The notes below the pieces were generated by a model that was not told the DNA's origin, ran no database searches, and saw nothing but the letters and a program-made list of their open reading frames with translations. Shown here in pieces: positions 5,685-32,117 of a stretch of DNA of 32,164 bases; position 1 is the stretch's first letter; every line of letters starts with the position of its first letter. The DNA is from an uncultured Prevotellaceae bacterium (GTDB taxonomy: Bacteria; Bacteroidota; Bacteroidia; Bacteroidales; Bacteroidaceae), in assembly GCA_947167835.1 (NCBI GenBank), contig CAMVJO010000010.1, positions 1 to 32,164 on the forward strand, written 5' to 3'. The translations under genes and the position numbers were made by a program.

Positions 5685-6623
5685 CTATGTAAGGGCGCGG
5701 AATACCTTGTTAATACATCTTTTCTTCTGCTCATTATTGGGATGCACGTAGAGATTGAGCGTTGTCGCGATATCTGCATGGCCCAGAATGACACTAACGG
5801 TTTTGTAGTCGCAGCCCGATTCTATGCAGCGCGTAGCAAACGAATGGCGCAGGCCATGAAATGTGAGCATAGGCAGGTGTAATTCGCGCAAAAGTCGGTG
5901 ATAGTAGTTGCGATATACGCGCGGCTCGGTGGGAACGCTTCGGTTTGTTATCACAAAGTGGGAGTCGCAACACTTCTTGCCGTATGAACGCAGGATTTGC
6001 ACAAGGAAATTGCTGATAGGTATCTCGCGATGCGAACTTTCCGTCTTCGGTGTGCTCTCAATCAGCATCGTAGCGCGCCTGTCTCCGTTGAAAACATAAA
6101 TACGTTCGATGGTGCGATTGACTGTGATGACGGAATTATCAAGATCTATGTCACTCCATTTCAATCCGCAGACTTCGCCGATGCGCAGTCCGGTGCTCAT
6201 GCAGATGAGTACGCCCAGGTTCTTGAAACTGAAGTGCTCTTTCACATGATTCAGGAGGGTTCTGTATTGTTCCAGGCTGAAAACCTTGAGCAACCCTTTG
6301 CTATTCTGACGGGGATAGTGGATAGTCAAATCGTGGTGCGGCCAACCGTGATAACGCTCCGCAAAGCGTATGATCATCCGCAAGACCATGATCGTGTCCT
6401 GCACACTTTTCACCGAAAGGCCCGAAAGAAGTTTGTCGTAAACATACTTCTGCACACTTTTCTCGCTCAAACTCTCGCATCGTCCGAAGGCCGGATTCAG
6501 ATGCTTCTCGACAATCAGAAAATAGACCGCCCAAGTAGAGCGTTTCACACACATACGCTTCTCTTCAAGCCAGCATTTGGTAACGAAATCGAAGCAAACC
6601 GATGAATTGTTGGTAGCCATCAT
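5685..6623 (-). CDS. Tyrosine-type site-specific recombinase/integrase
   Basis: 312 aa; catalytic motifs TGLRIGEVCGLKW, FHGLRHSFAT, LGHADIATTLNLYVH intact. Confidence 0.9.
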   Translation of the reverse strand: MMATNNSSVCFDFVTKCWLEEKRMCVKRSTWAVYFLIVEKHLNPAFGRCESLSEKSVQKYVYDKLLSGLSVKSVQDTIMVLRMIIRFAERYHGWPHHDLTIHYPRQNSKGLLKVFSLEQYRTLLNHVKEHFSFKNLGVLICMSTGLRIGEVCGLKWSDIDLDNSVITVNRTIERIYVFNGDRRATMLIESTPKTESSHREIPISNFLVQILRSYGKKCCDSHFVITNRSVPTEPRVYRNYYHRLLRELHLPMLTFHGLRHSFATRCIESGCDYKTVSVILGHADIATTLNLYVHPNNEQKKRCINKVFRALT

Positions 6624-6670
6624 AGTTTTAAGGAATTAAAAAGGTTAGAAAAAGTAAGTGATTTATTAAA

Positions 6671-6750
6671 GGTTGTTCTAAAAAACAGCTTCTGTAACGG
6701 GAAATTTTATTTTCCCCGTATGCTTTGCTTTTTCTCCTTAGAACAACGCT
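6671..6750. repeat. Short/decayed element sharing MITE terminal motif
   Basis: GGTTGTTCTAA at 6671 and TTAGAACAACG at 6738-6748 in inverted orientation around a GGGAAATTTTATTTTCCC hairpin. Confidence 0.55.
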
Positions 6751-7839: not shown

Positions 7840-8027
7840 GGGTTGTTCTAAAAATTAGGCTGTTTTGATTTTTCAAAGATTTTTGAGTGATTTTGTTTTT
7901 AATGCCGCAGAAGCATAGCGAGCTATGGTTCAAGGTATTAAAGACAATGGCGCCAAAAAGATTGAAAAAGCATACAGACAAAAAAAAAGCTTCACAAAAT
8001 TTTAAAACCTAATTTTTAGAACTACCC
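7840..8027 (+). mobile_element. MITE-like element, family 1, copy 1
   Basis: GGGTTGTTCTAAAAATTAG...CTAATTTTTAGAACTACCC; TTAA flanks at 7836-7839 and 8028-8031; ~188 bp imperfect palindrome. Confidence 0.85.
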
Positions 8028-9957: not shown

Positions 9958-10116
9958 CAAACAATTTCATAATAGACGAAATAATCTCCCCGTTTTTTGG
10001 CAGAGACACGCAGAAAAAGCATAAACCCATCCCAAAACCACCATACTACACACTGTTGCACCCACAGCAAAACCGAAGAGCACGCAGAAACTCCAGACCA
10101 TCTGCGCAAAAAAAGA

Positions 10117-10200
10117 TTCTCCTCGCGTTGAGAAAACTTTCTCATCGCCATGAGAAAACATTCTCTTCGCGATGAGAAAATTTTCTCACGGCGAAGAGAA
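10117..10200 (+). repeat. Palindromic tandem array A (4 units, 22+22+22+18 bp)
   Basis: TTCTCCTCGCGTTGAGAAAACT TTCTCATCGCCATGAGAAAACA TTCTCTTCGCGATGAGAAAATT TTCTCACGGCGAAGAGAA. Confidence 0.9.
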
Positions 10201-10238
10201 TGATAATACAAGAGGAAAACCACTATTATACACGCAAA

Positions 10239-21077: not shown

Positions 21078-21234
21078 CAAAATAAAAGTTAATCCGCTGC
21101 ACGATGATTTAATATTTTTTCTATTATCCAGTATTATAGGGCTGTTCATTGTTATTGTGTACAGCGGATGTGGCACATGGCGGCACATGTCTCCGCATGG
21201 GCTGCAAACAGAAGAAATATGGCACATCGTCAGA

Positions 21235-21318
21235 TTCTCCTCGCGATGAGAAAGTTTTCTCTACGCGTTGAGAATATTTTCTCTTCGCGATGAGAAAGTT
21301 TTCTCACGGCGAAGAGAC
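21235..21318 (+). repeat. Palindromic tandem array B (4 units, 22+22+22+18 bp)
   Basis: TTCTCCTCGCGATGAGAAAGTT TTCTCTACGCGTTGAGAATATT TTCTCTTCGCGATGAGAAAGTT TTCTCACGGCGAAGAGAC; same unit order as array A. Confidence 0.9.
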
Positions 21319-21421
21319 AAAATTTGAAGCGCCACTATACAAAACCCTTGACGATTCCATGCGTAGCGGTGTGCTAAAAGTTAAAATAACTGAAACTAAT
21401 ATGTTTATTTGTCTGATATTC

Positions 21422-22099: not shown

Positions 22100-22285
22100 G
22101 GGTTGTTCTAAAAATTAGGCTGTTTTGAGTTTTCGAAGATTTTTGAGTGATTTTGTATTTAATTTCGCAGAAGCATAGTAACCTATGGTTCAAGGAATAA
22201 AAGACAAAAGCGCCAAAAAGATTGAAAAATCATACAGACTTAAATGGACTTCCCAATATTTATAAACTAATTTTTAGAACAACCC
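22100..22285 (+). mobile_element. MITE-like element, family 1, copy 2
   Basis: GGGTTGTTCTAAAAATTAG...CTAATTTTTAGAACAACCC; TAAA direct repeats at 22096-22099 and 22286-22289. Confidence 0.88.
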
Positions 22286-25082: not shown

Positions 25083-25490
25083 AACTACCCCGGAAACAAG
25101 GGAAATTAGCTCGGAGCAAAAAAAAATTAAATCCGAGCTAATTTTAGGGTTGTTCTGAAAATTAGTTTATAATTATAGGGAAGTCTTGTTTGGTCTGTAT
25201 GCTTTTTCATTCTTTTTGGCACTTTTGTCTTTAATTCCTTGAACCATAGAAGACTATGCTTCTGCGAAACTAAAAACAAAATCACTCAAAAATCTTTGAA
25301 AAATCAAAACAGCCTAATTTTTAGAACAACCCTTTAAATAGTGTCGAGCTAATTTTTTATACCTCCGAGCTAATTTTTTATACCTCCGAGCCCATTATCC
25401 CCATATTGCCCAAATCGCCCATTATTCCCCATAAAATCACCTTCAAAAACCTCGTAATAACACAATACCGTCATCCCGTTATAACGAAAA
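25083..25490 (+). repeat. CTCGGAG-type repeat, copy L3, interrupted by MITE
   Basis: AGCTCGGAGC...CCGAGCTAATTTTA before the MITE; AATAGTGTCGAGCTAATTTTTTATACCTCCGAGC...CCCCATATTGCCCAAATCGCCCATT...CCCGTTATAACGA after it. Confidence 0.8.
25147..25332 (-). mobile_element. MITE-like element, family 1, copy 3 (reverse orientation)
   Basis: GGGTTGTTCTGAAAATTAG...CTAATTTTTAGAACAACCC; TTTA repeats at 25143-25146 and 25333-25336. Confidence 0.88.
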
Positions 25491-27518: not shown

Positions 27519-28259
27519 ATGAATTACAAACAGGAACATATAAAACCCTACGACGCACAACGCGAAAAAGGAGAGCAGGTTGAAGAAATGTTTGACAACA
27601 TTTCCCATTCCTACGACCTACTTAATCATTTCCTTTCCCTGGGTATCGATCGCAAGTGGCGCAAGGCTGCCATCAACTCCCTGAAAGCTTTTCATCCCCG
27701 CCACATACTTGATGTTGCTACGGGCACAGGCGATTTTGCCTTGCTTTCTGCTTCGATGCTTGAGCCGGAAAAACTTTTAGGCGTGGATATTTCAGAAGGT
27801 ATGATGCAGGTAGCGCGAAAAAAAGCGGCAGAACAACATCTGGATGCCGTCGTAAGTTTCCAGAAAGAGGACTGTATGCAACTCAGCCTCGACGATAATT
27901 CCTTCGATGCCGTAACTGTGGCGTATGGTGTGCGCAATTTTGCGGATTTAGAACGGGGACTGCGCGAAATGCTTCGCGTATTGCGTCCGGATGGCCGACT
28001 TGTCATCATAGAGCTCACCGCTCCCAAGTCTTTTCCCATGAAACAATTATTTTGGCTCTACTCCCATATTTATATGCCCCTGATTGGACGGTTAATCTCC
28101 CGAGACAATAAAGCATATTCCTACCTTCCCGCCACAATGGAGGCGTTTCCGCAAGGAGAAGTGATGCAGCAAATTCTGCAACGTTGCGGCTATGCCGACG
28201 TTTCGTTCAGGCGTTTCACATTTGGTCTGAGCACGCTTTATACAGCTCGGAAGCCATAA
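27519..28259 (+). CDS. menG: Demethylmenaquinone methyltransferase (UbiE/MenG)
   Basis: 246 aa; ILDVATGTGDFALL, VTVAYGVRNFADLERGLREMLRVLRPDGRLVIIELTAP, FGLSTLYTARKP. Confidence 0.9.
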   Translation: MNYKQEHIKPYDAQREKGEQVEEMFDNISHSYDLLNHFLSLGIDRKWRKAAINSLKAFHPRHILDVATGTGDFALLSASMLEPEKLLGVDISEGMMQVARKKAAEQHLDAVVSFQKEDCMQLSLDDNSFDAVTVAYGVRNFADLERGLREMLRVLRPDGRLVIIELTAPKSFPMKQLFWLYSHIYMPLIGRLISRDNKAYSYLPATMEAFPQGEVMQQILQRCGYADVSFRRFTFGLSTLYTARKP

Positions 28260-28324
28260 TCGTTTCTGTCGGACTATCAACAGATTTCCACACAATAAAT
28301 AATTTTTGCAAGGATTACTCTTAA

Positions 28325-28509
28325 GGGATGTTCTATAAATTACGTTTTTAAGAAACTGGTCTCTATTTTATTCTGCTTGTTTTTGAAATCTTTTTGCCGT
28401 CTTTAGCTTTAATTCCTTGAACCGTAGCTCGCTACGCTCCTTCGTCATTAAAGCTAAATCCAATCAAAATCTAAACAAAAACAATGCAGCCTAATTTATA
28501 GAACATCCC
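28325..28509 (-). mobile_element. MITE-like element, family 2, copy A
   Basis: GGGATGTTCTATAAATTA...TAATTTATAGAACATCCC, 185 bp; TTAA at 28321-28324 and 28510-28513. Confidence 0.9.
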
Positions 28510-28541
28510 TTAAAATAGATACACTTCAATTATTCCCCACT

Positions 28542-29315
28542 ATGAGCAAACGCGCATTTGGTCTGCTTGGCTATCCGTTAGGTCACTCTTTTTCTGCACA
28601 ATTCTTTGCAGAAAAATTCGAGCGTGAGCACATCGACGCTGTTTACACGAACTTTGAAGAGACCGATGCCGCACAACTGTGTCGTATCGTGACGGAACAC
28701 AATAATCTGGAGGGACTGAATGTCACGATTCCGCACAAAGGTGCTGTGATCCCGATGCTAAACGATATCAGTACGGAGGCAAAAAGCATTGGTGCCGTAA
28801 ACGTGATAAAAATCGTGCGCAACAGTCGCGGTACGTTCCTGAAAGGTTTTAATACCGACGTCATCGGATTTACCAGAAGCCTGCAACCTTTACTTAAACC
28901 GCACCATCGTCGCGCTTTGGTGCTGGGAACAGGCGGTGCATCGAAGGCTGTTGTTTTTGGCTTGCGGAAACTGGGAATTACACCACAGTACGTAAGCCGT
29001 AAGGCTAGAGAAAACATCCTTACCTACGAGGAAATCACGCCAAGTGTGCTGCAAGATTATACTGTCGTCGTGAATTGTACTCCGCTCGGCATGTTTCCGA
29101 AAATTGACGCGGCACCTTCCCTGCCCTATTCGGCACTAACGCCCCGACACCTGCTTTTCGATTTGGTTTACAACCCACTTGAAACGCAATTCCTCGCATT
29201 TGGAGCAAAACAGGGCGCCACTACCAAAAACGGGCTCGAGATGCTGCACTTACAAGCCTTGGCTGCCTGGGAAATATGGAACGACAATGAAGCATACTGC
29301 CCAGATTGCATTTAG
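28542..29315 (+). CDS. aroE: Shikimate dehydrogenase
   Basis: 257 aa; FGLLGYPLGHSFSAQFF, GLNVTIPHKGAVIP, GAVNVIKI, LVLGTGGASKAV, VNCTPLGMFP. Confidence 0.92.
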   Translation: MSKRAFGLLGYPLGHSFSAQFFAEKFEREHIDAVYTNFEETDAAQLCRIVTEHNNLEGLNVTIPHKGAVIPMLNDISTEAKSIGAVNVIKIVRNSRGTFLKGFNTDVIGFTRSLQPLLKPHHRRALVLGTGGASKAVVFGLRKLGITPQYVSRKARENILTYEEITPSVLQDYTVVVNCTPLGMFPKIDAAPSLPYSALTPRHLLFDLVYNPLETQFLAFGAKQGATTKNGLEMLHLQALAAWEIWNDNEAYCPDCI

Positions 29316-29499
29316 GGATGTTCTATAAATTAGGCTGCATTGTTTTTGTTTAGATTTTGATTGGATTTAGCTTTAATGACGAAGGAGCGTAGCGAGCTAC
29401 GGTTCAAGGAATTAAAGCTAAAGACGGCAAAAAGATTTCAAAAACAAGCAGAATAAAATAGAGACCAGTTTCTTAAAAACGTAATTTATAGAACATCCC
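29315..29499 (+). mobile_element. MITE-like element, family 2, copy B (inverted relative to A, identical by eye)
   Basis: GGGATGTTCTATAAATTAGGCTGCATTG...GTAATTTATAGAACATCCC; TTTA at 29311-29314 and 29500-29503. Confidence 0.9.
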
Positions 29500-29537
29500 T
29501 TTAGTATTGTCGCGATAATTACAAAAATCTGCGTTTT

Positions 29538-29654: not shown

Positions 29655-30140
29655 ATGAACGACTCATACAAGCGCCAGTCCACGATACGGATGTTGCTCA
29701 CGCACATGGAAGTTTCTTCCCAGCACATGTTGCTGGGTTTGTTGAAGCAACGCGGATTTGAGGTGTCACAACCCACGCTTTCAAAGGACCTAACCCAAAT
29801 GCATGTGGCGAAAGTACATACTAATGGGAAGCAAAGATACGTTTTGCCCGAAAATCCGCTCTACCAGCGCGAGGTAAGCCGCAATAACGTGCCGCCGGCA
29901 TGTGCCGATGCCTATATTTCCTGTGAACGCTCGGGCAATATGGCTGTTATCCACACGAAACCCGGATATGCTGCGGCAGTTGCCACCGAGATAGACCGAG
30001 CAAAATTCTCAAGTGTGCTGGGTACTGTGGCAGGATACGACACTATCATGCTCCTGCTACGCGAAAACACGCTGCCGGAGGCTTTCAATGAAGAATTGTC
30101 CACACTTTTCGTCACAGACGGCAAGGATAACTGGCAATAA
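29655..30140 (+). CDS. argR: Arginine repressor family protein
   Basis: 161 aa; N-terminal wHTH VSQPTLSKDLTQMHVAKV; C-terminal GNMAVIHTKPGYAAAVATEIDRAKFSSVLGTVAGYDTIMLLL. Confidence 0.9.
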   Translation: MNDSYKRQSTIRMLLTHMEVSSQHMLLGLLKQRGFEVSQPTLSKDLTQMHVAKVHTNGKQRYVLPENPLYQREVSRNNVPPACADAYISCERSGNMAVIHTKPGYAAAVATEIDRAKFSSVLGTVAGYDTIMLLLRENTLPEAFNEELSTLFVTDGKDNWQ

Positions 30141-31944: not shown

Positions 31945-32117
31945 TTTATTCCCCATTTCGTCATACCGTTAGTTCGATATACCGTTATTACGACCTCTTT
32001 GAGAGTGATTTCTGGGGAAAAAATGGGCGATATGGGCAATATGGGGTTAATGGGCTCGGAGATAACAAAATATAGCTCCGAGAAAAATCAAATTAGCTCG
32101 ACACTATTTAAAATTAT
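31945..32117 (-). repeat. CTCGGAG-type repeat, copy L4
   Basis: Reverse complement TAAATAGTGTCGAGCTAATTTG...CTCGGAGC...CTCCGAGCCCATTAACCCCATATTGCCCATATCGCCCATT...GTCGTAATAACGG... co-linear with L1 and L3. Confidence 0.8.

Follow-up and report, generated by a model that had tools for sequence, protein, structure and literature searches.

The window, i.e., the whole analysed stretch of 32,164 nucleotides from an uncultured Prevotellaceae bacterium, harbors an aroE gene enclosed by two copies of a 185-bp miniature element (MITE). These copies, designated A and B (Table 1), are two independent and recent insertions of one IS5-type MITE. Very probably they represent an ordinary pair of such elements, presumably moved in trans, with a body that amounts to a mobile cassette of structured RNA, comparable to ERIC and NEMIS. 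MITEs are usually defined by their ends; here the body appears conserved at the level of RNA structure, and the ends vary between families.

Table 1. Position of the MITE copies, related elements and neighboring genes within the window.
Feature	Position	Strand	Evidence and remarks
188-bp element of a sister subfamily	7840..8027	+	TTAA/TTAA; hairpin 7858-7979, 99.9 bits
186-bp element of a sister subfamily	22100..22285	+	1 bp past an ORF; hairpin 22118-22239, 77.1 bits
186-bp element of a sister subfamily	25147..25332	-	TTTA/TTTA; hairpin 25193-25314, 85.2 bits
ubiE/menG-type methyltransferase, ancestral upstream neighbor of aroE	27519..28259	+	Pfam PF01209, 201.9 bits; synteny in 24/29 relatives
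Left target duplication of copy A, TTAA	28321..28324		Flank reading
Copy A, 185-bp MITE	28325..28509	-	Minus is the hairpin strand, antisense with respect to ubiE and aroE
Conserved hairpin core of copy A	28371..28491	-	Covariance model R1, 92.6 bits
Right target duplication of copy A, TTAA	28510..28513		Flank reading
aroE, shikimate dehydrogenase, 257 aa	28542..29315	+	Pfam PF08501 (Shikimate_dh_N) above cut-off
Left target duplication of copy B, TTTA, within the aroE stop	29311..29314		Flank reading
Copy B, 185-bp MITE	29315..29499	+	Plus is the hairpin strand, in the sense direction of aroE
Conserved hairpin core of copy B	29333..29453	+	Covariance model R1, 92.6 bits
Right target duplication of copy B, TTTA	29500..29503		Flank reading
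argR-type repressor, first gene past copy B	29655..30140	+	PF01316 and PF02863

Comparison of the two arms within the window revealed exact reverse complements over all 185 bp, which are spaced by approximately 800 bp; once the flanks are counted in, the inverted repeat comprises 194 nt at 99%. Copy B begins with the G that completes the aroE stop codon, whose TA comes from the duplication. The empty site likewise reads TAG, and the gene product ends with ...DCI*. The aroE start codon lies 32 bp past the end of copy A. The gap between ubiE and aroE amounts to 282 nt, corresponding to 93 nt after subtraction of the element and one duplication. A preliminary description, made from the letters of the window, had reported arms without mismatch, duplications which differ between the copies and match within each, the start of copy B in a stop codon whose empty site is TAG and a distance of about 32 bp to the ATG, all of which proved accurate. 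Its view of the elements as MITE-like and inserted independently, not as a composite unit, is supported by the 18-bp ends, the 4-bp duplications and the many genomic copies, and by the separate matching duplications with unlike outer flanks. A special tie of the pair to aroE was not supported, and the hairpin, the orientation rule and the antisense status of copy A were absent from it.

The aroE gene is present in single copy, with one match in the own genome; against TIGR00507 its product scored 163.7 bits, which is under the cut-off of 200.2. Relatives of AroE occur in Proteiniphilum (57%), Muribaculaceae (52%) and Prolixibacteraceae (52%), which puts the host among the Bacteroidales. In 24 of the 29 genus relatives inspected, ubiE is located on the same strand just upstream of aroE and in 22 of these 24 it is directly adjacent. 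As none of these relatives carried an element in the ubiE-aroE gap, the insertions look young and lineage-specific. Because aroE still sits behind ubiE in the ancestral position and direction, it has not been turned, which together with the matching duplications agrees with the earlier statement that no net inversion took place. A flip of aroE had nevertheless been regarded as plausible; the assembly, a consensus in which minor orientations are invisible, contains no sign of it. That an aroE promoter must lie in copy A or read through it follows from the position, and in view of the ancestral ubiE-aroE operon read-through of copy A is the simpler case. Consensus scans for Sigma-70-type and Bacteroidetes-type promoter patterns gave nothing above chance in the elements, copy A included, and no intrinsic terminator was found at the elements.

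In the own genome (G000; 2.25 Mb on 157 contigs, 89.6% complete) 24 exact copies of the 185-bp element were detected and six more with 99% identity over the full length, while the covariance model of the hairpin core (R1) yielded at least 150 matches. The ends are 18-bp inverted repeats (GGGATGTTCTATAAATTA), and the 18-bp terminal pattern GGGWTGTTCTAWAAATTA gave 286 exact matches versus 0 for the reversed-pattern control. Among the 28 185-bp copies with both flanks readable, 24 are bordered by identical 4-bp flanks, which take the form TNNA in 23 cases (T first in 23/24, A last in 24/24). The element is thus short, multi-copy and without transposase coding capacity, and it combines inverted ends with target duplications, as is characteristic of MITEs. 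Three elements of sister subfamilies with 186-188 bp are located in the window, and of 301 family-level genomes, 19 contain the end pattern. Plasmid and phage records contained no match to the element; where the end pattern matched in viral contigs, the ends were single and unpaired, and these matches were rejected as probably due to chance.

Several variants were observed beside the regular form. Four exact 185-bp copies possess unlike flanks (L121/L012, L005 and L016, i.e., C46, C78 and C24 of the own genome, and L002). Three of them form the closed set TTTA/TTAA, TATA/TTTA and TTAA/TATA, as exchange among three copies or a chimeric assembly would give. Versions of 270-271 bp from two different subfamilies (L028, L029, L031 (501-770); L041, L046, L049, L060, L065) carry an extra stem-loop module of about 85 bp, ACTCTGTTTGTYGTC..GAACAAAC, ahead of the same AAATC site, and elements of other species include different extra stem-loops (L107, L123, L222, L248). 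The elements therefore look modular. Nested insertions also occur, with a 187-bp element inside a 185-bp element and a TTTA duplication (L030:501-876), as do several copies of very short forms of 58-79 bp which extend barely beyond the two ends (G012 C22:33760-33828, C188:90968-91025, L163:3141-3219).

The search of family-level genomes identified a full insertion sequence of 1371 bp with TAAA on both sides in another genus (G288, L209:2342-3712). Its left end equals the MITE end at 18 of 18 bases and its right end is degenerate. The encoded protein of 372 aa belongs to the IS5 family (NF033581, 270.9 bits versus a cut-off of 140) and comprises DUF772 and DDE_Tnp_1; no sequence relative of this transposase was found in the PDB. 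Two relatives of the insertion sequence are flanked by the 4-bp duplications TTTA and TTAT. In G188, deletion derivatives of the IS5 element keep the start and/or the end of the transposase gene (L208:1098-1576, L207:2211); the one on L208 retains both, which indicates a route to non-autonomous forms. Given these shared ends and duplications, an IS5-family transposase presumably mobilizes the MITE in trans. The own genome contained no transposase of the G288 type at E<=1e-20 in an assembly of 157 contigs and 89.6% completeness, an incompleteness that makes this absence weak evidence. The only DDE_Tnp_1 gene matched there (L160) adjoins a MITE, is not inside one and is not bounded by these ends; the DDE_Tnp_1 loci of the genus considered as partners were likewise not bounded by them.

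Among the 150 listed hairpin matches of the own genome, nine neighboring pairs within 1.2 kb were counted versus 9.7-11.5 expected for a uniform distribution, and two of the nine are inverted. Since close pairs occur at chance rate, the bracket needs only a high copy number as explanation: the bracketing of aroE is a coincidence. This also bears on the idea of an invertible switch, in which the identical inverted arms recombine and flip aroE together with its expression. Exact inverted arms at this spacing, and mismatched flanks at some other copies as expected from recombination between copies, would suit such a switch; we regard it as very unlikely, given the matching duplications of A and B, the ancestral orientation of aroE beside ubiE and the chance frequency of close pairs, and joins made during assembly may account for the mixed flanks at other copies. 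Similarly, A-aroE-B could form a composite unit that mobilizes aroE as its cargo, and its outer ends are indeed IS5-type ends, namely those of the single elements. This is hardly credible for an interval whose outer flanks (TTAA versus TTTA) share no duplication and whose aroE is a single-copy gene at its ancestral place. The fragmented short-read assembly might also have produced the identical copies artificially, as several of the 157 contigs end inside elements and 4 of the 28 copies show mixed flanks. An artefact of this kind appears most improbable, because 24 of the 28 copies, A and B included, have their own matching duplication and the end pattern recurs in the 19 genomes mentioned above.

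In 27 distinct elements, drawn from many species, the inner part adopts one common hairpin of about 120 nt with the apex TAG-CGRG-CTA, which is more stable than its complement in 26 of the 27. For the 185-bp element the fold z-score is -9.8 on the hairpin strand (plus in B, minus in A) and -7.9 on the other strand. In an alignment of 21 cores, 78.7% of the pair cells hold standard pairs; shuffling lowers this share to 62.8% and sliding to 48.2% or less. Compensatory changes on both sides are seen in 31 of 44 pairs. Since a single member, L249, supplied the structure and the cores share descent, these figures are not probabilities. When the arms were aligned with G.U and A.C scored alike, a strand-neutral procedure which removes the fitting bias, 96 G.U versus 29 A.C mispairs were counted, which by shared ancestry are not 125 independent events; G.U prevails in 23 elements, A.C in two. 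The elements lie on both chromosome strands, so that a mutational strand bias is an unlikely cause, and the excess suggests that selection acts on the RNA, or else on one single strand. Base pairing of the hairpin body on one strand appears to be under selection, the body being a stem-loop conserved at the RNA level as in RNA-acting MITEs of the ERIC/NEMIS type. Searches against Rfam gave no match in the window at the gathering score, and in the elements of seven loci none reached it either.

Elements are restricted to intergenic regions (0 of 112 inside ORFs) and often inserted just past a stop codon. Between co-directional neighboring genes of the own genome, 33 elements have the hairpin strand in sense and one has it in antisense. 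Genes were called by a codon-usage score with the window as training set, so that single calls may be wrong. The one antisense element among these 34 is copy A. The orientation to genes is hence non-random in the own genome, whereas in other genomes the bias is weak, with 25 sense versus 14 antisense elements in co-directional contexts.

We infer that the element transposes in trans, that its hairpin is transcribed and that it influences 3' ends or stability of the mRNA, the latter by likeness to what is reported for ERIC and NEMIS. A short element with 18-bp inverted ends would be inserted by an IS5-family transposase acting in trans, creating the 4-bp TNNA duplication. Insertions persist only between genes, in the own genome with the hairpin nearly always in sense, so that in the transcript it would form a 3'-UTR or intercistronic structure that may act on mRNA 3' ends or stability. 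Copy B would supply such a hairpin to aroE. Copy A stands antisense between ubiE and aroE, and transcription of this ancestral operon probably runs through it. Should the hairpin function as a 3'-UTR element, a post-transcriptional module would have been distributed to at least 150 sites within one genome, and the almost uniform sense orientation there would let RNA-seq test this directly.

Palindromic centers are common in MITEs. The elements could accordingly be plain selfish MITEs, with the hairpin as a relic of foldback formation and a sense bias caused by selection against antisense insertions or by asymmetry of the transposase. The weak orientation bias in other species would be in line with this explanation, and repeats downstream of genes may be merely tolerated; such neutral tolerance, argued for pneumococcal repeats (PMC3049150), would give the same placement. 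The compensatory changes across species and genera, the G.U excess on one strand and the recurrence of the core within elements of unlike ends speak against it, and we lean slightly away from the selfish explanation while taking it seriously.

This recurrence was found with R1, which at E<=1e-4 matched in 10 of 246 other genomes of the order, in eight other families. In the window's family the core lies between GGGRTGTTCTATAAATTA ends with 4-bp TNNA duplications. In other families it is enclosed by GAGCCTGTTTAAATTTTA ends (L314 and L334-L336 of G639; L338 of G441) or GAGCTTGTTTAATAATAA ends (L325-L329 of G655), each with 3-bp TTA or TAA on both sides; further end types are GTAACTGGTCAAAATT in G560 and TGAGGTCATCCTGACTTTTAGA in L316. 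The layout is kept across end types, with the hairpin near one end and a longer spacer to the other. We read this as a core that changed its ends; A/T-rich hairpins might converge, yet apex and arm sequences are alike. Rather tentatively, one RNA hairpin core would be the selected payload of several MITE families with unlike ends throughout Bacteroidales, a mobile 3'-UTR cassette that changed transposases. The core was also detected with 80-85 bits in IMG/VR contigs classed as viral (L344:12980-13100, L345:11465-11585, L340:8610-8731).

Comparison with known systems places the element near several of them. Insertion sequences of the IS5 family (NF033581) share the 18-bp left end, identical in G288, and TNNA-like 4-bp duplications; the MITE differs in lacking a gene, and its core is not recognizably part of the transposase gene. 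The MITEs of P. gingivalis (BrickBuilt, MITEPgRS, MITE239/464/700; PMC4596501) are likewise intergenic Bacteroidales elements near genes with IS5-family ends, but their ends are GAGACCTTCGCA and others, and BrickBuilt contains a 23-nt minisatellite and not the present hairpin. ERIC and NEMIS/Correia elements (PMC2229807) are MITEs located between genes, with long stem-loops in their RNA; the effect of ERIC on the upstream mRNA depends on orientation, and for NEMIS RNA cleavage by RNase III has been proposed (PMC2229807). They belong to other phyla and have TA-type targets and unrelated sequences, whereas the present fold spans elements with different ends. Pneumococcal RUP, BOX and SPRITE repeats (PMC3049150) are also numerous, modular and enriched between convergent genes, with RUP tied to IS630; host, ends and structure are different. 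GTAG/CGTC-tagged REPs (PMC3733652) are palindromic repeats whose stems show compensatory changes and G.T pairs, which have been interpreted as an indication that they function as RNA. They are 20-40 bp long, lack inverted ends and duplications and are tied to tyrosine (RAYT) transposases, and an assignment of the element to them is ruled out by its 185 bp, inverted ends and duplications. In the literature searched, no Bacteroidales MITE with such a hairpin was found.

Further repeats are present in the window. A family of about 155 bp with 77-79% identity and TAGCTCGGAGC-type units is located at 53-206, 25335-25488 and 31956-32112, and MITEs often adjoin such units. Two arrays of the 22-bp unit TTCTCnTCGCGATGAGAAAn (10092-10221 and 21210-21339) are 83-87% alike and can also be read as inverted repeats. 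An ORF at 5685-6623 reads like a tyrosine recombinase (HGLRHSFATRCIESG...LGHA) and adjoins an end-like remnant at 6666-6691.
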